This document shows, one piece after another, positions 13,097-27,668 of a DNA stretch of 64,000 nucleotides (the stretch's first letter is position 1; each line of letters opens with the position of its first letter). Made by a program: the position numbers and the translations under genes. The stretch comes from Polyangiaceae bacterium. GTDB taxonomy: Bacteria > Myxococcota_A > Polyangia > Polyangiales > Polyangiaceae. The notes beneath the pieces are model-generated. The model did not search any database. It was given only the letters and a program-made list of their open reading frames with translations, and was not told the origin of the DNA. The stretch lies in assembly GCA_029266615.1 (NCBI GenBank), contig JAQSWN010000056.1:1-64000 (forward strand), in the 5' to 3' direction.

Positions 13097-14221
13097 ATGA
13101 ACCGTAGCGGTGGGCGGGCGGCTGTGGTCCTGGCGGCGGTGGCCAGCTTGGGCTCGGCGCATTGCCGCGAACCTGCTTCGAACGTCAGGCCAGCCGGTGC
13201 CGCGGGCAATGGCGCGACTGTGGGCGAGGCTGGCAAGGCGGCGGGCGGCGACGGCGACGCAGGCATGCCGACAGGGGGCTCTGCGAGCTCCGGCGGTCCG
13301 AGCACGGCGGGCGGGGAGGCGTGCGAGCTCGCGCCTCTCGACGCGGTGGAGTGTGAGCCTGCGCGCGTCGAAAAGCAGTGCGCGTCTGGTTGGTGCAAGA
13401 TTCCGGCGGGTTGCTTCGTGATGGGCGCTCCTCCGTGCGAGTGGGGGCGCGCGCAGCGGAGTCAAAACGAGATGCTCGCGACCCTCACGCACGGCTACGA
13501 GATTCAGCAGCACGAAGTCACTCAGGCGGAGTGGACGGCGCTCGGCCTCACCAATCCGAGCGGTAGCCGGGACGACGGTCGCGATTGTTTGGAGCCGGAT
13601 TGCCCCGTCGGCAACGTGAGCCTGACGGACGCGCTCGCGTACGCCAACTTGCTGTCCGAGCGCCACGCGCCACCATTAGCTGCGTGCTATTCGCTGTCGG
13701 GTTGCACCGGAAAGCTCGGGGAAGGCTTGTCCTGCAAAAGCCGAGCGGTGGTCGGGCCAAGCGTTTATGACTGCGCGGGTTACCGCCTTCCCACGAAGGC
13801 CGAATGGGAATACGCGGCGCGAGCCGGCGCGCGCACGGCCTTTTATAACGGCGACATCACGCCGCAGGCCGGCGTCGGAGTTTGTGGCGCCGACGCGAAG
13901 TTGGAGGCCATCGCGTGGTATTGCTTCAACTCGGGCAAGACCACGCACCCCGTTGGCGGCAAAGACCCGAACGGCTGGGGTCTGTTCGATATGCTGGGCA
14001 ACGCGAGCGAATGGACGACGGGCGGGCCCTCCGACACGAATCGGCCCGCCGCTGCGACCGACTACGAGGCCACCTTCACCGACGATTTGATCTTCCCCAC
14101 AAAAGGCGGCTTCATGAATGCCGACTCGCTCAGCTGCCGCATCGCCGGACAGCTCCCGGCGCCTCCTAACGAGCGCGCGCCCGGCTCCGGCTTCCGACTC
14201 GTTCGCACGCTTCTTCCATAG
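13097..14221 (+). CDS. FGE-sulfatase-fold putative lipoprotein, tandem copy 1
   Basis: 374 residues, ATG preceded by GAGGACGG. A signal ends in GSAHC, then comes a Gly/Ala/Ser-rich linker to residue ~75, so it is an envelope protein. The FGE-sulfatase fold follows: IPAGCFVMGAPPCEWG, YEIQQHEVTQAEW, YRLPTKAEWEYAARAG, GLFDMLGNASEWTTG and GFRLVRT. The extra Cys in the domain suggest disulfides. The next gene starts 6 bp after its stop and is a clear duplicate, so they probably form one transcript. Function beyond the fold is unknown. Confidence 0.85.
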   Translation: MNRSGGRAAVVLAAVASLGSAHCREPASNVRPAGAAGNGATVGEAGKAAGGDGDAGMPTGGSASSGGPSTAGGEACELAPLDAVECEPARVEKQCASGWCKIPAGCFVMGAPPCEWGRAQRSQNEMLATLTHGYEIQQHEVTQAEWTALGLTNPSGSRDDGRDCLEPDCPVGNVSLTDALAYANLLSERHAPPLAACYSLSGCTGKLGEGLSCKSRAVVGPSVYDCAGYRLPTKAEWEYAARAGARTAFYNGDITPQAGVGVCGADAKLEAIAWYCFNSGKTTHPVGGKDPNGWGLFDMLGNASEWTTGGPSDTNRPAAATDYEATFTDDLIFPTKGGFMNADSLSCRIAGQLPAPPNERAPGSGFRLVRTLLP

Positions 14222-14227
14222 GGGGCG

Positions 14228-15358
14228 ATGTTGCACGTAACCGCGCTCTCACCTCGTTGGATATTGTTGGCCGCCTTCGCCCTGGGCGCCGCCGGTTGCC
14301 GCTCGCAAGATTCGCCGGCCATGCCCAGCGGCGGCGGCTCGAGCGGCGAAGCCGGTCAGGCGCGTGGGGGCGTCGGGTCCGGCGCCACCGGCGGGAGCGC
14401 CAACTCAGCCGGAGGGACGAGCGCCACGGCAGACAGCGGCGAAGGCGCGATGGGGGGCGCGTGCGACCTGCCGGCGTTGGACGCCGCTGGTTGTGAGCAT
14501 CCACCAGTACGTGCTCAGTGCGCGGACGGTTGGTGCCAGCTCCCGGCTGGTTGCTTCATCATGGGCGCGCCGCCGTGCGAGTGGGGGCGCGCGCAGAAGA
14601 GCGAGAATGAAATGCGAACGACACTCTCGCACGCATTCGAGATACAGCAGTACGAGCTCACCCAGCAACAGTGGACGGAGCAGGGCTTGCCAAACCCCAG
14701 CGGCAGCCGACAAGACGGCGCGGACTGTATGGATCCCCAGTGCCCCGTCGGCAAAGTGAGCCTGACGGAAGCGATGGCTTACGCCAACTTGCTCTCCGAA
14801 AAGCACTCACCGCCCCTGCCGAGCTGTTACGAGCTCAGCGGCTGCTCCGGCAAGCTCGGAGTGGACCTCTCTTGTACGAGCCGCAGCGCCGTTGGCAAGA
14901 ACGTTTACGAGTGCGGCGGCTACCGCCTCCCCACAGCCGCCGAGTGGGAGTATGCGGCCCGCGCGGGCGCTCGCACCGCCTTCTACGAGGGCGACATCAC
15001 CCCTCATGCCGGCATCGGCGTCTGCGCAGCAGACTCAGCGCTGGAGCCGATCGCCTGGTACTGCTTCAACTCTGGCAAGACGACTCACGCGGTGGGCCTT
15101 AAGCAGCCCAACGGCTGGGGCCTACACGACATGCTCGGTAACGCGAGCGAATGGACGACCGGCGCAACCTCCGACACCCATCGCCCCCCGTCCGCCACTG
15201 ACTACGAAGGCGTCTTCGTAGACGACCTCCTGTTCCCAAGCCGGGGCGGATTCATGAACGGTGACTCCCTCACGTGCCGCCTCGCGGCCCAGCTCCCGTC
15301 CCCTCCCAACGAACGCGGACCCGGCTTCGGATTCCGTCTGGTGCGGACGCTTCCGTAG
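14228..15358 (+). CDS. FGE-sulfatase-fold lipoprotein, tandem copy 2
   Basis: 376 residues, closely similar along its length to the gene just upstream. The N-terminal signal ends in LGAAGC, a good lipobox, and a Gly/Ser linker follows. Shared blocks include LPAGCFIMGAPPCEWG, FEIQQYELTQQQW, YRLPTAAEWEYAARAG, GLHDMLGNASEWTTG and GFGFRLVRT. The close spacing and high similarity indicate a recent tandem duplication, with the signal peptides diverging faster than the domain. Confidence 0.87.
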   Translation: MLHVTALSPRWILLAAFALGAAGCRSQDSPAMPSGGGSSGEAGQARGGVGSGATGGSANSAGGTSATADSGEGAMGGACDLPALDAAGCEHPPVRAQCADGWCQLPAGCFIMGAPPCEWGRAQKSENEMRTTLSHAFEIQQYELTQQQWTEQGLPNPSGSRQDGADCMDPQCPVGKVSLTEAMAYANLLSEKHSPPLPSCYELSGCSGKLGVDLSCTSRSAVGKNVYECGGYRLPTAAEWEYAARAGARTAFYEGDITPHAGIGVCAADSALEPIAWYCFNSGKTTHAVGLKQPNGWGLHDMLGNASEWTTGATSDTHRPPSATDYEGVFVDDLLFPSRGGFMNGDSLTCRLAAQLPSPPNERGPGFGFRLVRTLP

Positions 15359-16287: not shown

Positions 16288-17694
16288 TCAGCCGCCGGGG
16301 CGAACTGGGATCGTGCTCGGCGCCGAGCCCTCGAGCGCGAAGTACGAGTCGAAGATCAGCTGGCGCACGTAGACGGGATTGTGGATACCGCCGGCTGCTC
16401 CCCGCGCCATCAGCAGGTAGTTGTACACGGCGCCCGTTACGTCCCCACTCAGGCCGGTGTTTCCGGGACGAGCGGCGTCCTCCGCGAAGTTCGCGTCCGC
16501 GAGCTGGGCCGGGGTGAGCACGTCGAAAGGAGCGGCGCTGGCGCGAGTCAGCAAGCCTTCGTCGTTGAGCGCTTTGCGGAGCTGGCGAAGACTCTCCTTC
16601 ATCGCGGTCTGGCCACCGATGATATCGAAGCTCGTCGCGGAAGAGTGGCAGCCTCCAGTCGTGCAAGCGCTGAGCTGCGGACGGAAGGAGTGGTCTCCGA
16701 CGCCTTGGTTGAGGTCGGTGCTCGGCATGTGGCAGCTCACGCACCCCTTCTCCAGCGCTTGGTGGGAGGAGTTGTTGTAAGTCTTGCCGGTGTAGTGGTA
16801 GCCGCCGAGGCCGGTGAAGATGTCCGTCTGCGGGCCTTCGTGGGGGCCCCAGTTGCGGCTGGTGAGCGAGTTGCCCGTAGCGGTGATGTAGTTGGTGACG
16901 TCTTTGCGCGACTTGTGACACCACATGCACGCATTGCCGGAGCCGTACGGCTCAATCGGCGTGCCATCCGAGAGGCCGACCGCCGAGCTCTTTTCAATGT
17001 AGGCCACTTCGCTGCTACCCGTCGGCACCCGAAGCGGAAACGAGCCGGGGGTGTAGGGGGCGCCTGTGCGGTGAGGGTCGTTCTCTTCCGTCACCTCGTG
17101 ACAGGTCGTGCAGTGGACGACGGCGACGCTGGCGTGGCCCGCGTACGTGGACTCACTCACCTTGTTGGTGGTGCTGTTCAGGTAGTTGATTTGGCCGTGG
17201 GAGACGTTGGTCGGGCCCGTGGTGCCAATGAAGCGCACGTTTTCTTCCAGCCGCTGCTGAATGCCGTCGATGGCGTGACAGTTGCCGCAGCCAGCGGTGC
17301 CCGTCCACGTGTCCACTTCTTCACCGCCGAGGTTCGCGACGTAGGTCGCGAAATGGGTGCTGGTCTTCCACTGCTCCACCACGCCGGTAAAGCCATGACA
17401 CGGGGACAGGCAGCTGGAGCTGAGGGGGGTGGAGCCGGCGCCACCCACGCCCGTTTCCCCGCCGTCGCCCATGCCGACCGGACCTGCGGGGCCCTCCGGA
17501 CCGGCGGGTCCGGCCGGACCCTCGGGACCAGCCGGACCTCTGGGCCCGGAGTCACCTTCATCACCGGTATCTCCCTTGGGGCCCTGAGCGCCTGCCGGAC
17601 CGGTCGCGCCGGTCTTGCCGTCATCCCCGGAGCACGCAGGTGCTACCGCAGCAAGAATCAAGAAGAGTGCATAGACAGAGTGACGAGCGCGCAT
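16288..17694 (-). CDS. Multiheme c-type cytochrome lipoprotein with collagen-like stalk
   Basis: 468 residues, ATG 17694 preceded by GGAGGATCGG. The signal ends VAPAC (lipobox). Residues ~26-75 are collagen-like Gly-X-Y repeats (GATGPAGAQGPKGD and similar). The rest carries four CX2CH sites (CGNCH, CTTCH, CMWCH, CVSCH), one CX3CH (CLSPCH) and one CX4CH (CTTGGCH), so up to six hemes. Other His residues can serve as distal ligands. It is divergent from the NapC-type gene and probably part of the same electron transfer cluster, as an outer-surface or periplasmic carrier held off the membrane by the stalk (inference). Confidence 0.88.
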   Translation of the reverse strand: MRARHSVYALFLILAAVAPACSGDDGKTGATGPAGAQGPKGDTGDEGDSGPRGPAGPEGPAGPAGPEGPAGPVGMGDGGETGVGGAGSTPLSSSCLSPCHGFTGVVEQWKTSTHFATYVANLGGEEVDTWTGTAGCGNCHAIDGIQQRLEENVRFIGTTGPTNVSHGQINYLNSTTNKVSESTYAGHASVAVVHCTTCHEVTEENDPHRTGAPYTPGSFPLRVPTGSSEVAYIEKSSAVGLSDGTPIEPYGSGNACMWCHKSRKDVTNYITATGNSLTSRNWGPHEGPQTDIFTGLGGYHYTGKTYNNSSHQALEKGCVSCHMPSTDLNQGVGDHSFRPQLSACTTGGCHSSATSFDIIGGQTAMKESLRQLRKALNDEGLLTRASAAPFDVLTPAQLADANFAEDAARPGNTGLSGDVTGAVYNYLLMARGAAGGIHNPVYVRQLIFDSYFALEGSAPSTIPVRPGG

Positions 17695-17850
17695 GTCCGA
17701 TCCTCCGAGCTAGCTTGGATCAAAGCTAAACCGCCCGAGCGCATACTGCCCGACCCTCCAAGCCGCCGTCAAAGCTTTGCACGCTTATGTACAAGCTCTC
17801 AAAACGGGTACTTCCGAAACGAAAGGGCAAATTGGCGGGAGACCAAGCAG

Positions 17851-17880
17851 CAAGCTTTGCGCGGGCTCGCGCAAAGCTTG
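17851..17880. promoter_or_regulatory. 30-bp perfect inverted repeat in divergent cytochrome promoter region
   Basis: CAAGCTTTGCGCG pairs perfectly with CGCGCAAAGCTTG around a GGCT centre. It lies in the 265-bp gap between the divergent collagen-like cytochrome gene and the NapC-type gene, about 80 bp upstream of the latter. A related half, CAAAGCTTTGCACGC, lies near 17769. This could be an operator for both genes or a hairpin in the mRNA leader. The TTTTT run 10 nt later is too distant for a standard terminator. Confidence 0.55.
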
Positions 17881-17959
17881 CGCCTCTGTTTTTGCCAGAG
17901 TGGAATGACTCGATGACTCCTCTTGCGAGACCGGCGGTCACGGGCTCTGATGCGCGATC

Positions 17960-18667
17960 GTGGCTCTGGCGACCTCTTGGCTTGGGGTAATTGCGCTCGT
18001 TAGTGCGGCGTGCGCTGCAGCAATTCTGCTCCGCTTCTTAATCAAGAAGCCGCCGTTGGACGTGCGCGCCAAGCTGCTGCTGTTGTTCGGCCTGGGAGTG
18101 TTCCCGGCGTTAGCTGCCGTCTCCTCTACGGTGGCAGGCATGGAAGCCACGACCCACCGTGAGTTCTGCGGCTCTTGTCACGTGATGGGCCCTTACCATG
18201 AAAACGCGTCGGATCCGCAGGCGCAGTCTCTCTCGGCGCGGCACTCCCGCAATCCGTTCTTCGGCGACCGCAGCTGTTACGTGTGTCACGCCGACTACGG
18301 CATGTTCGGCTACGCCATGACGAAGGCGGGCGGTATGCGCCACGTTTACGAGTACTGGCTCGGCGGCTATCGGAGCATGACGCTAGAAGAATCCAAGCAC
18401 GCGATCCACCTGCTCAAGCCGTACGACAATCACAACTGTCGGCAGTGCCACACCACGACGGTGCACGATTGGCGGCGCATCCCCGACCACCAATCACTCG
18501 AAGCGGAGCTCGCCGCCAACCGAGTCAGCTGCGCGAGCGCCGGCTGCCATGGCTACGCCCACCCCTTCACGAAAGCCGACGGCGCTCAGGCGGGCGGCGC
18601 TCACCCCGTGCCCAGCGCGAGCCCTAGCCTGAGCGCGAGCCCTAGCGCCAGCGGAGGACGGCCATGA
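17960..18667 (+). CDS. NapC/NirT-type tetraheme cytochrome c (quinol dehydrogenase)
   Basis: 235 residues from a GTG start. Two N-terminal hydrophobic segments (residues ~5-25 and ~38-60) anchor it in the inner membrane. Heme sites follow: REFCGSCHVMGPY, CYVCH, CRQCH and a CX4CH (CASAGCH). HREFCGSCHVM is the usual first-heme signature of NapC/NrfH quinol oxidases. They pass electrons from menaquinol to periplasmic cytochromes. The C-terminus is a Pro/Ser/Ala repeat tail. It overlaps the next gene by 4 bp (ATGA) and is the likely entry point of the electron route. Confidence 0.88.
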   Translation: MALATSWLGVIALVSAACAAAILLRFLIKKPPLDVRAKLLLLFGLGVFPALAAVSSTVAGMEATTHREFCGSCHVMGPYHENASDPQAQSLSARHSRNPFFGDRSCYVCHADYGMFGYAMTKAGGMRHVYEYWLGGYRSMTLEESKHAIHLLKPYDNHNCRQCHTTTVHDWRRIPDHQSLEAELAANRVSCASAGCHGYAHPFTKADGAQAGGAHPVPSASPSLSASPSASGGRP

Positions 18668-18903
18668 ACGAGCCTCGCTCGCGTTGGCTCGACGCCATTT
18701 TGCGTCGCTCGGTGCCAGAGCTCGTGCGGGTAGCGTGCGTGCTCGCGCTCCTCGGTCTGGCGGTGATGATCTACCCGCTGCTTTTTCCGGGCGCGCTGGG
18801 CATCGTCTTGTCGATGGGGGTCGGGCACATGATTGGCTTCACGGCGGCGGGCCTGTACTTGCTGGCCGTCGTCCTGGACGTAGCGCGGCGCCGTGATCGC
18901 TGA
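18664..18903 (+). CDS. Small two-helix membrane protein of the cytochrome operon
   Basis: 79 residues with two hydrophobic segments (VRVACVLALLGLAVMIYPLL and VGHMIGFTAAGLYLLAVVL) and basic ends. The start overlaps the NapC-type gene (ATGA), and the end overlaps the next cytochrome gene by 11 bp, so the three genes are translationally coupled. It has no heme motif. It may be a membrane partner or assembly subunit; family not recognised. Confidence 0.75.
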   Translation: MNEPRSRWLDAILRRSVPELVRVACVLALLGLAVMIYPLLFPGALGIVLSMGVGHMIGFTAAGLYLLAVVLDVARRRDR

Positions 18904-20671
18904 CGGGCGTCCCAGCTGCAGTCTCTGGCTGCGGTACCTCACCCTGCTGGCGCTCATCGTCGCGTGCTCCAGTGGGGATAGCTCTGGCCACCTCCACCCC
19001 GGGCTCGGCGTTTATATCCCCGCCACTTGGTCCGCGATTCGCCAAACCCCCGGCCACGACGTCCACGTCGTGCAAAAGCAGGTGAGCTGCGCGTCCTGCC
19101 ACGCCATCACCGACAGTGACATTGGACCCGTGCGCCCGGAGCGCTGCGGGGCGTGCCACGAAAAGGAAGCAAAAATCCAGCACGCAGGCGCGCAGGCGCT
19201 CGCCAAGCTCGGCACCACCATCACCAGCGACTGCACCCTGTGTCACCGCTTCCGCGAAGAGCAGCCGCTCGGCGCCATCGAAGCCACGGCCGCGGGCGTG
19301 GAGCTGGGCGTGCACCCTCATCAAGCCAGCGACTGCGCCCACTGCCATTTGAAAGCTCAAGGGCAGACCCCCGCGGTTCAGGTACACGCCAAGGAGGCGT
19401 GCCTGGACTGTCACCGACCCCACGAGGACGCGAGCCCGCAATCCGGTCCCTGCGCTCAGTGCCACAAGGACATCTCGACCACCCACGCCGCCCACGGTAA
19501 GTCGGCGAACGCGGTTTGCACCACCTGCCATCAAAAGCAGCACGCGCCGGCCAAAGAAGCGCTGGGCCGCTGCGCAGAGTGTCACGCCAAGCAAGAGCCA
19601 GTCGTGCCTGCGACCGCGCTGTTCGAAGGGGGGCACTTGGAGTGCGTGGGCTGCCACCGACCGCACGACTTTGGCAAGGCCAAGGCCGCGCCTTGCCGGA
19701 CGTGCCACGAAAACGTCTTCGTGTTGAGCCAGGCGAAGGTCGCGGCGCACGCAGACTGCAAGAGCTGCCACCAGCCCCACGACGTTAGGGGCAGCGCTCA
19801 GCAAGCTTGCGCCCGCTGCCACACGGCTCAGCAACCCGACCACCCCAAGCACGGCGCCGCCGGGACCTGCGTCGGCTGTCACGATCCGCACCCGGCTTCC
19901 AATCAGCAGGTCGCCCGAGCCGCGGCGTGCAGCTCCTGTCACCAAGCCGCGCCGAAGGAGACGGCCTTCCACGCAGGGGTAGAGTGCAAGAGCTGCCACG
20001 CCGCCCACGACTTCGTGCGCGAAAGCTCCGACCATCGCGCGTGCCAGGGTTGCCACGCCGCGCAGGTCACCAAGGCCGAGCACTCCAAGGGGCACCGCGC
20101 ATGCGAGAGCTGCCACCGCGGCTTGCCCCACCAGCCACTGCTCTCCCTCTCCGGTTGTGAGACGTGCCACGTGGCGGAGCGGGCCACCGCGAACGCCGGT
20201 CACGCGCAGTGCGTCGGCTGTCATGAGCCGCACAGCGGCGCGCAAGGAGCCGCCTGCGGTAGCTGCCACAAGGCCGAGCAGGCGAGCGCCCCCGCGGGCC
20301 ACCAAACCTGCCGCAACTGCCACGAATCTCACTCCGGCTCCGCCGCGAGCGCTCCTTGCGCGAAGTGTCACGAGCGGCAGGCGAAGTCGCCCCACGGCCA
20401 GCTCGCCGCGGATTGCCGCGATTGTCACCGCCCTCACGGGCCAAGCGGGCTGTCCACGCCCCCCCCGTGCAGCAGCTGTCACGAGCGCCCGAAGCTGCCC
20501 GGCTTGCACCTCGTGGACAAGCACGCCTCCTGCGCGAGTTGCCACACGGGTCACGGGGAAGCCCGTTCCGCGCTGCGCGACGCGTGCTTGACCTGTCACA
20601 CCGATCGCAAGCAACACTTTCCGGACGCGCCCAGCTGCACGAGCTGCCATCTCTTCGGAAAGGCTCGCTGA
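18893..20671 (+). CDS. 27-heme c-type cytochrome lipoprotein
   Basis: 592 residues from a GTG inside the upstream gene. The signal LTLLALIVACSS has a lipobox Cys. I count 27 CXXCH motifs between residue ~65 and the C-terminus, about one per 20 residues, with His-rich spacers (CHRPH, CHEPH, CHDPH) supplying distal ligands. Such packing fits a long heme wire rather than an enzyme. It is co-transcribed with the NapC-type protein and likely carries electrons across the periplasm or at the outer membrane. It faces the convergent barrel-cytochrome operon with only 7 bp between the stop codons. Confidence 0.9.
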   Translation: MIADGRPSCSLWLRYLTLLALIVACSSGDSSGHLHPGLGVYIPATWSAIRQTPGHDVHVVQKQVSCASCHAITDSDIGPVRPERCGACHEKEAKIQHAGAQALAKLGTTITSDCTLCHRFREEQPLGAIEATAAGVELGVHPHQASDCAHCHLKAQGQTPAVQVHAKEACLDCHRPHEDASPQSGPCAQCHKDISTTHAAHGKSANAVCTTCHQKQHAPAKEALGRCAECHAKQEPVVPATALFEGGHLECVGCHRPHDFGKAKAAPCRTCHENVFVLSQAKVAAHADCKSCHQPHDVRGSAQQACARCHTAQQPDHPKHGAAGTCVGCHDPHPASNQQVARAAACSSCHQAAPKETAFHAGVECKSCHAAHDFVRESSDHRACQGCHAAQVTKAEHSKGHRACESCHRGLPHQPLLSLSGCETCHVAERATANAGHAQCVGCHEPHSGAQGAACGSCHKAEQASAPAGHQTCRNCHESHSGSAASAPCAKCHERQAKSPHGQLAADCRDCHRPHGPSGLSTPPPCSSCHERPKLPGLHLVDKHASCASCHTGHGEARSALRDACLTCHTDRKQHFPDAPSCTSCHLFGKAR

Positions 20672-20678
20672 GCGTGGT

Positions 20679-22370
20679 TCAGGGTAGCTCGAACGTCACG
20701 ACGCCATCGACGTGCAGGTCCGGCCGGAGGAAGCTCTGGCCGTCCGGGGTGAGGTTCTTGTGACAGCGCCCGCAATCCTGCGAGTAGTAGGGGTGTGGGC
20801 GCGGAGGTGGTAACGCGTGGCACGAGCCGCAGGCCAGCTGCTCGCCGTCCACCGGTAGCCAGGACGGAGCGGTGGCGGTCCCTCCGGAGCGGTGCCCGCC
20901 CGGGAACACCGCGCCGTGACACGACGTGTCTACGCAGCGCCCGGCGCTGAACCGAGCCTCGCCCCCAAAGCTGTTGGCGGTGCCGGACAGCACGACCTCG
21001 GCCGGCGGACGCGTGTCCACATGTCCGGGCGCGAGCACCTCTTCCGGGACGACATGGCACTCGGCGCAGGGCACGGCGCGCGAGCGGGGCGTCCCCAGCA
21101 CGTGAGTCTGGTGAGCTCCCACGCCCCGCGCCCGGAGGCTCGAGTCTCCGTCCACGTTACGGGGCGGCGCGGCGTTGTCACCGCCATGGCAGCTGCGACA
21201 GCTCTGGTCGAGCTTCACGTCCACGTGGCCGTCGACGTGCCGGTCCTTCGCGATGATGGTGACGTCGTCGCTCCCCACCATGTCACCGTGGCAGCGTGAA
21301 CAATCGCTCATCTGCGGGTGCGGAGCGGGCGGAGGCGCGCCGTGGCAGGACGTGCAGCTCAGACGTGTCACGCGGTTCCAGGCTGGCGTGGGCTCGGCCG
21401 GGGTCGCGCCCGGGCCGTGACACCAACTGTCCGCGCAACGTGCGTCTCGGGGCTGCCAAGCCGGCTCACGGTCGCCGGTCTGAGCCACCCCGCGTAGCCG
21501 AACCTCCGCCGGCAGCCCGTCCGCGTGGTCGAAGTAGTCCGGCTCCGCCGGCACGTCGTGGCACTCCTGGCACGAGAGGGGGCGTGACCAGCGCCCGCCG
21601 GCGAGATGAGCTTGGTGGGCGCCGACGCCGAGGGCGGAGAGCGAGTCGTTGCCGGACACGTCGCGCGGCGGCGCCGGGTCGTCCCCGCTGCCGTGACACT
21701 GCGTGCAGCTGTTTGCGCTCACCTGCACCTCGCCGTCCACGTGGAGCGAGGGCGAGAAGAGCTTACCGGCCGCGTCGATGACCTCCCCATGGCAGCTGGA
21801 GCACAGCTTGGATTGGGGGTGGGGAGCGGCCGGGGGCAGCCCGTGGCAGGTACCACACGCCTCGGCCGAGCTGCGGGGCTCGGTCCACACCGCCTCGGAA
21901 GGGCCGTGGCAGTAGCTGTTGTCGCAGCGTCGCGCCACGCGGTCGTAGGCCGGCTTTCGTCCGCCGGTCTTGGCCAGAGCGCCGAACACGAGCTCCGCCG
22001 GGGCCGCGTCGTCGGCGTGACCGGGGCTGTCTGTTCGCTCCGGCACGACGTGACATTCCGTGCACGCGAAGGCGGCGTGAGTGTCGCTCGCGTACAGGTG
22101 AATGGAATGTGCGCCGACGCCGGGGTAGCTCGAGTCCGTTCCGCCCGAAAGGTCGCGAGGCGGCGCGGAGCGGAGCAGGCTGTCACCGGACCGCGACGGC
22201 TCCCCGTGGCACGCCGCGCATTCGTCGTTCGCGGAGCCGCGGGGCGGATCACGCCGTGAAAGGCAGCTGGTGCCGCTCGACAACACTCCCAGCGACGCGA
22301 GGGACACGAGCGCGGCCGCCCACCACGCCTTCGGCTGGGCGCGACGCGAAGCGGAGCGCGCCTCAACCAT
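20679..22370 (-). CDS. 15-heme cytochrome lipoprotein of the CX4CH/CX2CH type
   Basis: 563 residues from ATG 22370, which overlaps the upstream cytochrome stop by 8 bp. The signal ends SSGTSC. Fifteen sites are seen: twelve CX2CH and three CX4CH (CDNSYCH, CADSWCH, CVDTSCH). They form three repeats of five, each with a VGAHxxH segment, a CxECH, the CX4CH, then two CX2CH near APHPQ and LHVDG. The pattern resembles the Geobacter C4xC/C2xCH cytochrome repeat. It is the last gene of the barrel operon and probably an outer-membrane electron carrier. Confidence 0.88.
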   Translation of the reverse strand: MVEARSASRRAQPKAWWAAALVSLASLGVLSSGTSCLSRRDPPRGSANDECAACHGEPSRSGDSLLRSAPPRDLSGGTDSSYPGVGAHSIHLYASDTHAAFACTECHVVPERTDSPGHADDAAPAELVFGALAKTGGRKPAYDRVARRCDNSYCHGPSEAVWTEPRSSAEACGTCHGLPPAAPHPQSKLCSSCHGEVIDAAGKLFSPSLHVDGEVQVSANSCTQCHGSGDDPAPPRDVSGNDSLSALGVGAHQAHLAGGRWSRPLSCQECHDVPAEPDYFDHADGLPAEVRLRGVAQTGDREPAWQPRDARCADSWCHGPGATPAEPTPAWNRVTRLSCTSCHGAPPPAPHPQMSDCSRCHGDMVGSDDVTIIAKDRHVDGHVDVKLDQSCRSCHGGDNAAPPRNVDGDSSLRARGVGAHQTHVLGTPRSRAVPCAECHVVPEEVLAPGHVDTRPPAEVVLSGTANSFGGEARFSAGRCVDTSCHGAVFPGGHRSGGTATAPSWLPVDGEQLACGSCHALPPPRPHPYYSQDCGRCHKNLTPDGQSFLRPDLHVDGVVTFELP

Positions 22371-23412
22371 GGCAGTACCTGCACATTTCTGCGCTGGGCT
22401 CGCGCGCGCTCTGCCAGCCGCGGGGGTGCGGGTTACCCCCATAGCCACCGACTTGGTGGCAGCGGATGCAGTTGGTGGCAGGCCCTTGTTCGTGGCAGCT
22501 CGCGCACGCGACGATGTCTCGGCGCGCTTCTTGACCGTGCAGGCTGGTGAAGCCGGGGTTGTTGCTGACCCAGCCCGGCGGGTGCACGTTGCGCGCGTTG
22601 CGTAGACCCGCGCTGACCCCGCGCTCCAAGTGGCACTTGTCGCAGGACTGCGGCTCGTGGCAGGTGGTGCAGCGCGTGGGGGACGCCTTGGCCTCCAAAG
22701 CGTGGCGCGTCATGAAATCGCCACGGTGCACGAACGCGCCCTCGAGCTTTTCGGGGGCCCGAACCTCGGCGGTCAAAGTCTGGCTCACGTCGTGGCACGC
22801 CTGGCAGTCCTTTTGCGTGTGGCACGACTGGCAGAGCGCCTGCTGCTGAGGCGCGAGGTCACCGTGGCGGCGCATGAACGCCGCATCATGCTGGAGGAAC
22901 GTGCGGGGCGTGGTCCGACGCAAGTCCGCCGGTTGGTGACAAGGGCCGCACTCCGCGTTCGCCCATTGACGCTCGTGCTCGTGACAGCTGAAGCAGCGCT
23001 CCATCGGCGGCAAGGTCGACTCCCCCGCGCGCACCACTCCCTCGTGGCACTTGACGCATTGGCCGCGAATTTCCGGCATCGCCAAGTGTCGCGCGTGGTC
23101 GATGGCGATCTCACCCGAGATTCGCGGCGGCAGTAAAGACAGCGTCGCCTCCACCTTGGCCGCGTCCTTCTGGTGACAGCTACCGCACGCCTCCGGCCCC
23201 GGAAGCTTGTACTCCCGCGTGGGTTGGCTGGGGGCGTGGCAGGTGTTGCAAGTCAAACAAGCGGGCTTGCCCGGAGCGTTGCAGGCCAGCTCTGTCAGGT
23301 GGAGACGATGAGGGAAACGCTGAGGAGGCTTGGCCACGCAGGCGGCGAGCAGGGCCGCGAGCGCCACCGCGAGCGCGAGCAACCACGTAAACGCGGGCGG
23401 CCGGCGCTTCAC
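22363..23412 (-). CDS. 12-heme c-type cytochrome lipoprotein
   Basis: 349 residues from GTG 23412, overlapping the barrel gene stop by 3 bp (GTGA). The signal ends LAALLAAC. Twelve CX2CH motifs are present, including CNTCH, CGSCH, CVKCH, CFSCH, CGPCH, CQSCH, CQACH, CTTCH, CDKCH, CASCH, CIRCH and CRYCH. A barrel gene coupled to a multiheme lipoprotein is the layout of porin-cytochrome conduits in Geobacter. The protein may fill or plug the barrel next door and pass electrons through the outer membrane (inference). Confidence 0.88.
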   Translation of the reverse strand: MKRRPPAFTWLLALAVALAALLAACVAKPPQRFPHRLHLTELACNAPGKPACLTCNTCHAPSQPTREYKLPGPEACGSCHQKDAAKVEATLSLLPPRISGEIAIDHARHLAMPEIRGQCVKCHEGVVRAGESTLPPMERCFSCHEHERQWANAECGPCHQPADLRRTTPRTFLQHDAAFMRRHGDLAPQQQALCQSCHTQKDCQACHDVSQTLTAEVRAPEKLEGAFVHRGDFMTRHALEAKASPTRCTTCHEPQSCDKCHLERGVSAGLRNARNVHPPGWVSNNPGFTSLHGQEARRDIVACASCHEQGPATNCIRCHQVGGYGGNPHPRGWQSAREPSAEMCRYCHG

Positions 23413-24812
23413 CGGGCCCCCTGGGCTGGGAAGTCGAAGGCATAGTTGGCGCGCACCAAGGTCTGCGCGTCTATCGCCGCGTACGGAGAGCGCATGAGCG
23501 AAGCTCCCCACAGCAGGTTGAGTCGCGCGCTGGCTTCGTAAGACAGGGTACCCGCGTACACGAACGACGTATCGTAGAGCTGGATCGGCTCATCGTAAAA
23601 GTAGCCGTAAGCCTCTAGCGTCGCGGCGAGGCGGCTGGGAAAGCGCCGGGAGATGGAGCTGCGCAGGGAGTGGTAACCGTTGCCGGGGGCGACGACGCGA
23701 GCGTAGCTGAGCCGCACGAGGGTGGACTCGTCGACGACGAAACGCGCGGTGGCTTCCACCCGGCCACCGGGCTTTCGGTCTTGGTAAAGAGTCGCGAACG
23801 CGAGCCCCTCCACCGTCAACCCCTTCAGGGGCCGCAGCTTCGCGATGCCGCCCACTTCGTCGAAGCGGTCGTTGGAAAAGACGGAAAGCACCGACTGGCG
23901 TGACAGCCAGAGCGCCGGCTCCGTGTGCAGGTACTCTAACGAGCCGGTGAGCCAGGTAGCAGGAGTCCAATCCACCCACGCGCGAGTGTCGGCCAACCTG
24001 CCGGCGTCCGTGTCCACGATCGCGCTCACCGCCCCCGTGACGTCGGCGGTCGGGGTGCCTCGCAGATCCAGCCCCAGGTTCCGGTGGCCCAGCTCACCTT
24101 GCTCGCGCTGCTCATGAAAGGACGCGGACGCGGTGAGCGAAGGCTGGCTGTAAACGAGCCGCCCACCGAGCATCCAGTGACCTGACCGCTCCGGCTGCTG
24201 AAACGTTTCCGGGTTTCTGAGCAGCGAATCCGCGTTCGAGCCCAAGTGGTAGTAACTCAACCTCTGATTCCAGCGTGGCAGTACCGTCATACCGCCGTAA
24301 GCGTGCGCGGTGAAACCGGCCCCGAGGGCGGTCTCCAGCGCGGCACCGTCGAAGCGCGCAAATCTTGCGGCACCGCCCACGAACTGCTGGCGGCCCAGTT
24401 TGAATGAGGCGCCCCGCTGGTGATAAGTGACCGACGCGGTTTGTACGTCCCCGTCCGCAGGGCGCTCGAAGGTGTTGTTAGTAAAGAGTGCCCTCCCCCA
24501 CCCGCTGAGCTCGATATCCACGCTGTCTCGATGCCAGGGGCTATCCAGGTTCCGCGCCCGGACCTGCACGTACTCGAACACGGGCAGCACTGTCTCCGTT
24601 TGCACCAGCGAGCCCGCCGGACCGGGCAACAAAGCCCGGCGAAACAGCGTTGCATAAGTCTGCGATTGCGCCTGGAGCTCGAAGCGGTCGCTCGTCTGGC
24701 CCGCCCCGGGCGTCGGCGCGAGGACCTGCGGCTCCGCCACTAGCGGCTGTACAAAAATGAGAATTGCTACAGCGACCGATAGTGTCGGAGCAGCCCTCAT
24801 TGGCGAATCCAT
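23409..24812 (-). CDS. Outer-membrane beta-barrel of a putative porin-cytochrome conduit
   Basis: 467 residues. A cleavable signal (VAVAILIFVQPLVAEP) is followed by ~20 alternating amphipathic strands with Tyr/Trp girdles, as in RLSYYHLGS, ASVTYHQRGASFKLGRQQ, LEAYGYFYDEP and LVRANYAFDF. No soluble domain is present. It is first in an operon with the 12- and 15-heme lipoproteins, with coupled starts. In porin-cytochrome systems the barrel forms a sheath for a heme chain. Another start at 24800 (residue 5) is equally good. It diverges from the acyl-CoA synthetase gene. Confidence 0.8.
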   Translation of the reverse strand: MDSPMRAAPTLSVAVAILIFVQPLVAEPQVLAPTPGAGQTSDRFELQAQSQTYATLFRRALLPGPAGSLVQTETVLPVFEYVQVRARNLDSPWHRDSVDIELSGWGRALFTNNTFERPADGDVQTASVTYHQRGASFKLGRQQFVGGAARFARFDGAALETALGAGFTAHAYGGMTVLPRWNQRLSYYHLGSNADSLLRNPETFQQPERSGHWMLGGRLVYSQPSLTASASFHEQREQGELGHRNLGLDLRGTPTADVTGAVSAIVDTDAGRLADTRAWVDWTPATWLTGSLEYLHTEPALWLSRQSVLSVFSNDRFDEVGGIAKLRPLKGLTVEGLAFATLYQDRKPGGRVEATARFVVDESTLVRLSYARVVAPGNGYHSLRSSISRRFPSRLAATLEAYGYFYDEPIQLYDTSFVYAGTLSYEASARLNLLWGASLMRSPYAAIDAQTLVRANYAFDFPAQGAR

Positions 24813-24908: not shown

Positions 24909-27668
24909 ATGTCCGAACCCCTCGACGGAGCTCGACGCGATTCCATTGCACTCGCCAACGACATTTGGAGACAGCAGGGACATGCGCTCGACCACTTCTT
25001 CAAGCCGCGAAACATCGCGGTCATCGGCGCGACGGAGGCTCCGGGCAGCGTCGGTCGCACCATCCTCTGGAACCTGATCAGCTCCCCGTTCGGCGGCACG
25101 GTCTTCCCCGTCAATCCCAAGCGGGCGAGCGTGATGGGCATCAAGGCATACCCCGCCCTCGCCGACGTTCCGGCGCCGGTGGACCTCGCGGTCATCGTCA
25201 CGCCCGCCCCCACCGTCCCCGGCATCGTGCAAAGCTGCGAGGAAGCGGGCGTCCCCGCCGTGCTGATCATCTCGGCCGGGTTCAAGGAGCTCGGCCCCCC
25301 CGGGCTAGAGCTGGAAGCTCAGGTTCGTGCCATCGCCCAGCGCAGCCGCATGCGCATCATCGGGCCGAACTGCCTCGGCATCATGAACCCGACGAGCGGC
25401 GTCAATGCCACTTTCGCCAAGGGCATGGCGCGCCCCGGGAAGCTCGCGTTCATCAGCCAGAGCGGCGCGCTCCTCACGGCGATTTTGGACTGGAGCCTAC
25501 GTGAGCAGGTCGGCTTCAGCGGCTTCGTCTCCACTGGCAGCATGCTGGACGTCGGTTGGGGCGACCTCATCGACTACTTCGGGGACGACCCCAACACCAA
25601 AGCCATCTTGCTGTACATGGAGTCGATCGGGGACGCGCGTTCGTTCCTGTCCGCTGCGCGCGAGGTCGCGCTCAACAAGCCGATCATCGTCATCAAAGCG
25701 GGCCGGTCGGATGCCGCCGCCAAAGCGGCGGCGTCGCACACCGGCTCCCTCACCGGCTCGGACGAGGTGCTGGACGCCGCGTTCCGCCGGTCTGGGGTGC
25801 TGCGCGTCAACAGCATCGACGAGCTGTTCAACATGGCGGAGATCCTCTCCAAGCAGCCACGCCCGACGGGGCCGGGGCTGACCATCGTCACCAACGCGGG
25901 CGGTCCCGCCGTGCTCGCCACCGACGCGCTCGTCGCCGGCGGAGGCGAGCTGGTGAAGCTCGCCCCCGAGACGCTGAGCGCGCTAGACGCCGTGCTTCCC
26001 TCGGCTTGGAGCCATGGCAACCCGATCGACGTTTTGGGGGACGCGGGGCCCGAGCGCTACGTCAAGGCGCTCGAGATCGCGGCGCAAGATCCGAGCTCCA
26101 ACGGCTTGCTCGTGATCCTGACTCCGCAGGACATGACCGACCCGACCCTCACTGCGGCCGCGCTACAAAAGTACGCGACACTGCACGGCAAGCCCGTGCT
26201 CGCGAGCTGGATGGGCGGGGCGAGCGTCGCGGCCGGCAACGACATCCTCAACCGCAGCGAGATTCCGACCTTCGACTACCCGGACAGCGCGGCCCGCGCG
26301 TTCTGTTACATGTGGAGCTACACCTACGACCTCAAGGGTCTGTACGAGACGCCGAGCCTCGGCGAGGAAGCGAACGCGGATGCAGCCGCCGCGAGCGAGC
26401 TGGTCGAACGCGCCCGCCAAGGCTCTCGTACCTTGCTGGATGAAGCGGAGTCCAAGCGCTTACTCGCCGCCTACGGCATCCCGGTGGTGGAGACTCGCGT
26501 CGCGCACGAAGCGGAGCAGGCGGTTGCCATCGCGCGGGAGCTCGGCTTCCCCGTCGTCGCCAAGCTCTTCTCGCGGACCATCACCCACAAAACGGACGTG
26601 GGCGGGGTCATGCTGGACCTGAAGACGCCGGAAGCGGTGAAGGCCGCTTTCGAGACGATTCGGGCGCAGGTCGCCAAGCACGCCGGCGCTGAGCACTTTC
26701 AAGGGGTCACCGTGCAGCGCATGGTGCGCATGGCAGACGCCTACGAGCTCATCGTCGGCAGCAGCGTGGACCCGCAGTTCGGCCCGGTGCTGCTGTTCGG
26801 CGTCGGCGGGCAGCTGGTAGAGGTGTTCCGGGACCGCGCGCTGGCCCTGCCTCCACTCAACGCCACGCTGGCGCGCCGGCTCATCGAGGAGACTCGCATC
26901 GCCAAGGCGCTACGGGGCGTACGCGGACGCCAGCCGATCGACTTGGAAGCGCTGGGGAACGTCCTCGTGCGCTTCAGCCGGCTCATCGTGGAGCAGCCCG
27001 CGGTCAAAGAGCTGGACATCAACCCGCTCATCGCCTCGCCCTCCGGCATCATCGCGCTGGACGCGCGCGTCGTGCTGCACGAGCCAGGCGTGGACGCGGC
27101 GCACCTGCCGCGCCCCGCCATTCGCCCGTACCCGACTCAGTACGTGAAGCCTCACCGCTTGTCGGACGGGACGGAAGTCCTGATACGCCCAATCCGCCCG
27201 GAGGACGAGCCCGCCATCGCCGAGTTTCACAAGGAGCTCAGTGAGCGCAGCGTTCGCCTGCGCTACTTCCAGCCCCTGCAGCTCGGGCAACGCACGGCCC
27301 ACGAGCGCTTGATCCGGGTGTGCTTCGGCGACTACGACCGAGAGCTGGCGCTAGTCGTTGAGCGAAAGCAGGAGGGCGGCGAAGCCGGGCAGATCATCGC
27401 CGTCGGCCGGCTCAGCAAGACGCCGGGGCAGACGGGGGCCGAGTTCGCGATCCTCATCAGCGACGCGTGGCAGCGCCGGGGCCTCGGCACGGAGCTGCTC
27501 CGCCGCTTGATTCAAATCGGCAAAGACGAGAAGGTGTCCCGTATTTCCGCCGACATCTTGCCCGACAACGCCGACATGCGGCGCGTCTGCGAGAAGTGCG
27601 GCTTCAAGCTCGAATACCGGCCGGGTGACAGCGTCGTCCGCGCAGTCTTGCCCATCGACGGCCGATGA
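24909..27668 (+). CDS. ADP-forming acyl-CoA synthetase fused to GNAT acetyltransferase
   Basis: 919 residues, ATG preceded by GGAGG. The order is CoA-binding domain (~25-150: [20 protein letters not shown]), succinyl-CoA ligase-like domains (~160-470), ATP-grasp (~500-710: [20 protein letters not shown]), and GNAT (~735-919: [33 protein letters not shown]). The phospho-His is in [18 protein letters not shown]. Two activities are known for this architecture: acyl-CoA/acetate interconversion, and protein lysine acetylation (Pat-like). The next gene overlaps it by 4 bp. Closeness to the cytochrome cluster suggests acetate-linked energy metabolism, but this is only context. Confidence 0.93.

Follow-up and report, generated by a model that had tools for sequence, protein, structure and literature searches.

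A cluster of six genes at positions 16288-24812 of a 64,000-nucleotide stretch of DNA (hereafter the window; contig JAQSWN010000056.1 of a Polyangiaceae bacterium, assembly GCA_029266615.1) probably encodes a porin-cytochrome conduit by which electrons pass between the quinone pool and the surface of the cell, as judged from gene content and homology. The cluster comprises six uninterrupted open reading frames (ORFs), which specify five multiheme c-type cytochromes and one porin-like protein. A conduit of this kind is known and is not rare in Myxococcota. The less expected part of the cluster is a collagen-like stalk, which in the loci compared here is nearly confined to cytochromes.

Gene organization and the conserved barrel-cytochrome core

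Three genes follow one another on the minus strand, encoding a porin-like outer-membrane barrel of 467 residues (23409-24812), a 12-heme lipoprotein of 349 residues (22363-23412), which is the conserved partner of the barrel and a putative trans-barrel cytochrome, and a 15-heme CxxxxCH/CxxCH cytochrome (20679-22370), which is a putative outer-membrane lipoprotein. The stop of the barrel gene and the GTG start of the 12-heme gene overlap by 4 bases (GTGA), and the 15-heme gene, with its ATG at 22370, shares 8 bases with the 12-heme gene; because of these overlaps, the three genes look like one coupled minus-strand operon. On the plus strand, the gene of a NapC/NrfH-type tetraheme membrane cytochrome of 235 residues (17960-18667), a putative quinol dehydrogenase, is followed after 225 bases by that of a 27-heme lipoprotein of 592 residues (18893-20671) with the lipobox IVAC and c3/c7-like repeats, a putative trans-periplasmic relay. 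The sixth gene, for a stalked hexaheme cytochrome of 468 residues (16288-17694, minus strand), is divergent from the NapC-type gene. An initial sequence-only reading of this DNA had placed the genes in coupled operons, a description that strictly fits the barrel operon with its overlapping genes but neither the NapC-type and 27-heme genes, separated by the 225-base gap, nor the divergent stalked gene.

The same reading had counted 64 heme-site motifs, and exactly this number was obtained across the five cytochromes, as 58 CX2CH, one CX3CH and five CX4CH motifs. The stalked cytochrome has four CX2CH, one CX3CH and one CX4CH, the NapC-type protein three CX2CH and one CX4CH, the 15-heme protein 12 CX2CH and three CX4CH, and the 27-heme and 12-heme proteins 27 and 12 motifs, respectively. 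In the whole window TGYNNNNNNTGYCAY matches 62 times, versus 2.4 +/- 1.5 matches expected from 100 shuffles, and 58 of the 62 fall within 16729-23250. The GC content is 67.5% in the cluster stretch versus 66.8% in the window. Lipoboxes are clear in the 27-heme and 12-heme proteins, which agrees with their earlier description as lipoproteins; the third protein so described, the 15-heme cytochrome, has an imperfect box (GTSC). An Rfam scan of the window gave no match at gathering scores, a promoter scan found none and was not used, and the nine terminators predicted, versus 5.6 expected, were not used as evidence either.

To compare the cluster with its relatives, a profile built from 16 homologues of the 12-heme protein was searched against a collection with one genome per species, and the best 80 of 94 loci (L041-L120) were taken; they comprise 78 records of metagenome-assembled genomes (MAGs) and two isolates, Anaeromyxobacter soli SG29 and A. 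terrae SG22. The underlying contig scan used one peptide pattern and is uninformative on absence. All locus counts given here rest on a mechanical ORF caller, and the loci are related by descent, for which Fisher values are uncorrected. A barrel of the same family is present in 79/80 loci, the exception being L119, where the match lies 56 bases from the locus end, and the barrel gene adjoins a 12- or 13-heme gene on the same strand in 77/80. A homologue of the 15-heme CxxxxCH cytochrome, with up to 36 motifs, occurs in 64/80 loci. Loci shorter than 18 kb often lack flanking sequence; among the 37 loci of at least 18 kb, all 37 have the barrel and cytochrome genes adjacent, 35 hold a CxxxxCH cytochrome, 11 a NapC-type protein, 16 a relay and 17 a stalked protein. 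In L109 and L116, CxxxxCH-type cytochromes with 36 motifs stand beside the same barrel core, which points to a variable outer part.

The AlphaFold2 model of the barrel, made from 78 sequences, has 22 strands and a mean predicted local distance difference test score (pLDDT) of 85.9; neither Pfam nor NCBIfam gave a match to the barrel sequence at E≤0.1. Among solved structures, the 12-heme profile matches the dodecaheme protein 3ov0 (E 3.6e-26), which we take to be GSU1996, 6r2q_A (2.8e-8), presumably MtrA although it is named otherwise in the structure file, and 6r2q_C, an OmcA/MtrC chain (2.4e-5), matches that partly reflect heme spacing. The lipobox cysteine of the 12-heme protein, Cys25, is invariant in 16/16 aligned homologues, and a lipobox is also present in the proteins of A. 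soli and A. terrae. The 15-heme protein matches TIGR01904 with 111 bits against a cut-off of 27, and a crude scan found a lipobox-like cysteine in 56/61 of its homologues. A PF09698 search of the own genome returned nothing and its controls were silent too, while the 15-heme protein itself matches this family at E 7.5e-4; the search was given no weight.

The tetraheme protein belongs to the NapC/NirT family by its PF03264 match (49.6 bits versus a cut-off of 24.1) together with its tetraheme content, and hydropathy indicates two hydrophobic segments at its N-terminus. Its match to TIGR03153 (E 1e-10) is below the equivalog cut-off, and it passes no NCBIfam cut-off. When NapC-type proteins and relays (at least 19 hemes) were scored across the 80 loci, 15 loci held both, two only the NapC-type protein, nine only the relay and 54 neither (Fisher 2e-8, uncorrected for kinship); the two NapC-only loci are weak matches of ~29% identity. 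Moreover, the NapC-type gene adjoins the relay homologue in 15/15 loci holding both. Because the two genes co-occur and adjoin, these data suggest that their products may work together, the one oxidizing quinol and the other forming a long periplasmic relay. The 24 relays carry 19 (one protein), 23 (11), 27 (four), 33 (three) or 34 (five) heme motifs.

A collagen-like stalk shared by cytochromes with different heads

The stalked hexaheme cytochrome starts with a signal sequence and has, directly after a lipobox-like Cys21 (APAC), 18 uninterrupted Gly-X-Y triplets at residues 23-76. All eight same-head homologues with an N-terminus have 9-22 triplets at the same place behind a lipobox-like cysteine. 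We therefore scored ORFs by a stalk rule, namely a lipobox-like cysteine, at least 7 triplets starting within 14 residues and an ORF length of at least 200 residues, and classed ORFs with at least 4 heme motifs as multiheme. In L041-L120, which had been chosen by the 12-heme protein alone, the rule selected 26/246 multiheme ORFs, spread over 25/80 loci, versus 4/1899 others; these four ORFs are cut by the locus end and have 1-3 heme motifs. In L143-L162, most of which were fetched for a related head with a query without the stalk, it selected 9/59 versus 0/464, giving 35/305 versus 4/2363 for the two sets pooled. The 'other' ORFs include non-coding frames, which inflates the contrast on that side. 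The loci L021-L040 stand outside the pooled figure and gave 6/69 versus 0/578; ten of them duplicate named loci (L021/L043, L022/L044, L023/L064, L024/L046, L025/L045, L027/L054, L028/L067, L029/L114, L030/L095 and L039/L085). Under a looser lipobox rule, 23/80 loci hold a stalked cytochrome and four hold other matches, two of them in Gly-rich frames unlikely to be genes.

Because of its APAC box, the stalked protein of the window does not satisfy the stalk rule, and it was added by hand to the 35 proteins as the 36th sequence; the number of triplets across the stalked proteins ranges from 7 to 22. BLAST at 1e-10 divided the 36 heads into three unjoined groups, one of 13 including the window's head, one of 19 OmcA/MtrC-type heads and one of four octaheme heads. 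The group of the window's head is not uniform and includes three 9-heme proteins of ~920-985 residues. TIGR03507 (OmcA/MtrC) matched 20/36 stalked proteins at E≤0.001, the best at 4e-134; the OmcA/MtrC family holds surface reductases. In the own genome no TIGR03507 match was obtained, and the controls there also stayed below the cut-off, though the model matches other loci. An OmcA/MtrC-type query had no match in a plasmid collection. Heads related to that of the window were found in 14/282 Myxococcota genomes, with two copies in the own genome, and a barrel at E≤1e-39 accompanied them in 11/14 genomes versus 40/268 genomes without a related head. A second stalked hexaheme gene of the own genome (L143, contig C256, 1924-3390, minus strand) lies on a 3.6 kb contig and encodes 21-22 triplets and a head 73% identical to that of the window.

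Further comparison of the head with solved structures showed that its C-terminal ~150 residues (222-366 of 385) match NrfA (8bcx, E 4e-5; 6v0a, 2e-4), while its N-terminal half is unmatched. The head also matched the octaheme nitrite reductase 8rv0 (E 0.007), and the seven structure matches of the head profile are six nitrite reductases and one cytochrome c-552. The head resembles NrfA and octaheme nitrite reductases in its C-terminal part but differs from them in its six hemes, its collagen-like stalk and its unmatched N-terminal half. No CXXCK motif is present in any of the six cluster proteins; some NrfA have CXXCH instead of CXXCK. That the head is NrfA itself is not supported, given the lack of CXXCK and the alignment of only the C-terminal part. 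An OmcS-like nanowire, considered because of the six hemes, is not supported either: neither the head alone, at E≤1, nor its profile gave a match to a solved filament of this type in a search run without a positive control.

In alignments, the solved Shewanella proteins MtrF, OmcA and UndA have ~5-6 Gly-X-Y triplets near the chain start, whereas the window's protein has 18. We read the stalk as an elongated form of this short run. Collagen rises 0.286 nm per residue. If the 18 triplets (54 residues) form a collagen triple helix, the head would therefore be a trimer on a rod of ~15 nm. A wider proposal, which we make tentatively and hold to be somewhat less than an even chance, is that Myxococcota possess modular surface cytochromes, in which one lipid-anchored, probably trimeric collagen-like stalk carries interchangeable heads, receives its electrons from a single conserved barrel-cytochrome core and sets the reach of the heads. 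Under this proposal the NrfA-like hexaheme, OmcA/MtrC decaheme and octaheme heads would be of different descent. If true, the stalk would solve a physical problem of extracellular respiration, since it would let a terminal cytochrome extend through the surface layer and contact a mineral or a further cell; the prediction that the head is a trimer carried on a rod of set length can be put to a direct test. A search of open-licence PMC articles, in which absence is weak evidence, found no report of collagen-stalked surface cytochromes.

Comparison with known conduits and alternative explanations

According to the available text of Shi et al. (2014; PMC4245776), three Anaeromyxobacter strains have a two-gene pcc cluster of a porin-like protein and a 12-motif cytochrome called periplasmic; no outer cytochrome is described in these clusters, nor in that of Kuenenia, whose cytochrome has 14 motifs, and the cytochromes of Anaeromyxobacter and Kuenenia together are 338-344 residues long. 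The 12-heme protein of A. soli SG29 has 348 residues and is 33% identical to that of the window (E 2e-59), and the barrels are 25% identical (E 4e-15). No other gene with at least 3 motifs was found in the stretches of 11.9 and 18.8 kb examined for A. soli and A. terrae, respectively. From gene number, heme number and length, we infer that the A. soli pair is of the published Anaeromyxobacter pcc type. Because the window's core is homologous to this pair, and the pair matches the two-gene make-up of Shi et al., the core is filed as a Pcc system. The likeness consists in a barrel gene adjoining a 12-heme gene of similar length, a pair that A. terrae SG22 has too, and in the lipobox-like start of the 12-heme protein in both isolates and in the window. 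Unlike the Anaeromyxobacter clusters, the window has four more genes beside this pair, those of the putatively outer 15-heme cytochrome, the NapC-type protein, the 27-heme relay and the stalked hexaheme cytochrome. Most described pcc clusters, though not all, include an outer-membrane lipoprotein cytochrome.

The sequence-only reading had compared the layout with the conduits of metal reducers such as Geobacter. Its interpretation as a porin-cytochrome system stands, but the relatives with which sequences were compared are those of Anaeromyxobacter, and the likeness to Geobacter rests on gene layout. As described in the available part of PMC6148476, the Geobacter OmbB-OmaB-OmcB, ExtABCD and ExtEFG conduits likewise have a barrel, a multiheme partner and an outer lipoprotein cytochrome in one operon, and the Ext and OmcB conduits show no mutual homology; that part mentions no collagen stalk, NapC-type gene or 27-heme gene in these operons, in which they differ from the window. 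The cluster also follows the logic of a further system, and its 12-heme profile reaches 6r2q_A of that system. This is the Shewanella MtrCAB/OmcA/CymA system, with a quinol dehydrogenase, a relay, a barrel with a trans-membrane cytochrome and a surface cytochrome. In contrast to this likeness, the window's barrel has no detectable homology to a solved barrel in a profile search to E≤10.

A profile of 78 barrels matched 104/282 Myxococcota genomes at E≤0.001 (76/191 among the better genomes) and 50 genomes below 1e-40; only a small number of candidates in each genome were scored, and around E 1e-4 the matches may come from barrels of other kinds. By this sequence-based measure the conduit system is frequent in the phylum; the earlier view, that such a system is unexpected in a typical aerobic predatory or cellulolytic myxobacterium, needs correcting in that the system is not exceptional among Myxococcota. 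The best relatives of the barrel in the 282-genome sample lie within the window's own family, in the own genome and seven others, which supports the earlier assignment of the DNA to a myxobacterium-like genome. The available portion of PMC11495043 already reports Myxococcota MAGs in which several multiheme proteins are predicted to be extracellular, and names Anaeromyxobacter as a group that has extracellular cytochromes. A search of open-licence PMC articles, subject to the same limit as above, found no report of extracellular electron transfer in Polyangia. Our comparison suggests that some myxobacteria may exchange electrons with things outside the cell. If true, such exchange would be widely available to Myxococcota and not limited to the genus Anaeromyxobacter. 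Members of this phylum are usually described as aerobic predators and degraders.

In the proposed pathway, quinol would be oxidized by the NapC/NrfH-type tetraheme protein in the inner membrane, and electrons would pass through the 27-heme relay across the periplasm to the 12-heme cytochrome seated in the 22-strand barrel. From there they would reach the 15-heme CxxxxCH cytochrome at the outer face and the hexaheme head, held beyond the surface on its lipid-anchored collagen-like stalk, the triple helix of which would bring three heads together, and finally an acceptor that may be a mineral, a humic substance or another cell. The gene content, heme motifs and gene overlaps, the conservation of the core, the adjacency of the NapC-type and relay genes, the homology to Anaeromyxobacter, the 22-strand model and the link of the stalk to cytochromes are shown by the analysis; the localization of the proteins, their order, the trimerization, the outward direction and the acceptor are what the pathway would add to them.

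Several results weigh against this pathway. The lipoboxes of the 15-heme (GTSC) and stalked (APAC) proteins are imperfect, and a crude scan saw a lipobox in 15/24 relay relatives. The membrane side of the 12-heme protein is uncertain; it has a lipobox here and was called periplasmic by Shi et al. (PMC4245776, in the part available), and a lipoprotein may face either side of a membrane. The profile of 78 barrels found no solved barrel at E≤10 apart from one unrelated row, and Foldseek returned generic barrels with TM ≤0.52 and no MtrB among the 50 of 1086 matches listed, a fold search that is uninformative on kinship. The AlphaFold2 model of the head, from 10 sequences, has a pLDDT of 47, and the barrel search gave no match in 3/14 of the genomes that carry a related head. 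The host genome is a MAG of 8.88 Mb in 444 contigs, 98.2% complete and with an estimated contamination of 7.0%; homologous clusters are present in many separate assemblies. Finally, not all organisms with pcc clusters reduce solid Fe(III), according to the available text of PMC4245776.

The same proteins might work in the opposite direction, with quinone reduced by the NapC-type protein and the electrons for this drawn by the surface cytochromes from Fe(II), minerals or partner cells. NapC/CymA-type proteins may run either way, and the Sideroxydans CymA has been proposed as a quinone reductase (PMC6295460, as far as its available text goes); electrons taken up in this way could be respired on oxygen, as the own genome has three matches to the COX1 family. 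However, the cultured Pcc relatives belong to Anaeromyxobacter, and the part of PMC4245776 consulted lists one species of this genus, A. dehalogenans, as an Fe(III) reducer; the stalked OmcA/MtrC relatives belong to a family associated with outward systems. We regard inward transfer as unlikely, although it is the most serious of the alternatives.

It is quite improbable that the NrfA-like head is itself an enzyme that reduces a soluble oxyanion of nitrogen or sulfur, at the surface or in the periplasm, and that the rest of the cluster only feeds it, as might be read from the matches of its C-terminal 150 residues to NrfA (8bcx, 6v0a) and to the octaheme nitrite reductase 8rv0, and from an NrfHA-like tetraheme and pentaheme pair elsewhere in the genome, which is named by motif number only. 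The head, however, has no CXXCK catalytic motif and aligns only over residues 222-366 of 385; relatives place an OmcA/MtrC or octaheme protein on the same stalk beside the same core; and a barrel and a stalk would be needless for a soluble substrate. It is least probable of all, indeed very doubtful, that none of the cytochromes leaves the periplasm, where they would store or relay electrons, and that the barrel is merely a common porin. A role of heme-dense proteins as capacitors is conceivable, as speculated for other phyla in the available portion of PMC11495043, and with two imperfect lipoboxes in the window the surface location is our reading of the sequence. The adjacency of the barrel and 12- or 13-heme genes in 77/80 loci, their overlap in the window and a collagen stalk behind a lipobox, which has no obvious use in the periplasm, all argue against such a store. 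The porin-cytochrome conduit between the quinone pool and the cell surface remains the reading that we favor.

Respiratory context, further modules and neighboring genes

Since three COX1-family matches were found in its genome, the host, an uncultivated myxobacterium, is likely a facultative aerobe. The genome also encodes a five-heme protein that is possibly the ActA subunit of an alternative complex III, and the tetraheme and pentaheme gene pair resembling NrfHA mentioned above; both assignments were made from the number of motifs, the gene position and profile similarity rather than from a family search.

A second, divergent module is present in the same genome (L163, contig C120, 7240-10106, plus strand), in which a 501-residue protein with a signal peptide is followed by a 13-heme protein. 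The 13-heme protein matches the 12-heme profile (E 2e-42), and its signal seems to be ordinary rather than that of a lipoprotein; the 501-residue protein has no match to the barrel profile at E≤10, and its identity as a barrel is a guess. Pairs of a barrel and a 13-heme protein also occur in two large genomes of the same order (L160, 9904-12551, plus strand; L161, 8211-11071, minus strand), one of which is assembled as one contig (10,327,335 bases); in neither case do the 20 kb examined hold another gene with at least 3 heme motifs. Such a pair is present as well in L084, from a record titled Candidatus Omnitrophota.

In the window, two tandem genes for FGE-sulfatase-domain proteins with lipoprotein-like starts (13097-15358, plus strand) lie upstream of the cluster. 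On its other side, a gene at 24909-27668 (plus strand) adjoins the barrel operon divergently and encodes a fusion protein, in which a GNAT acetyltransferase domain is joined to an acetate-CoA-ligase-like part with CoA-binding, ligase and ATP-grasp domains.

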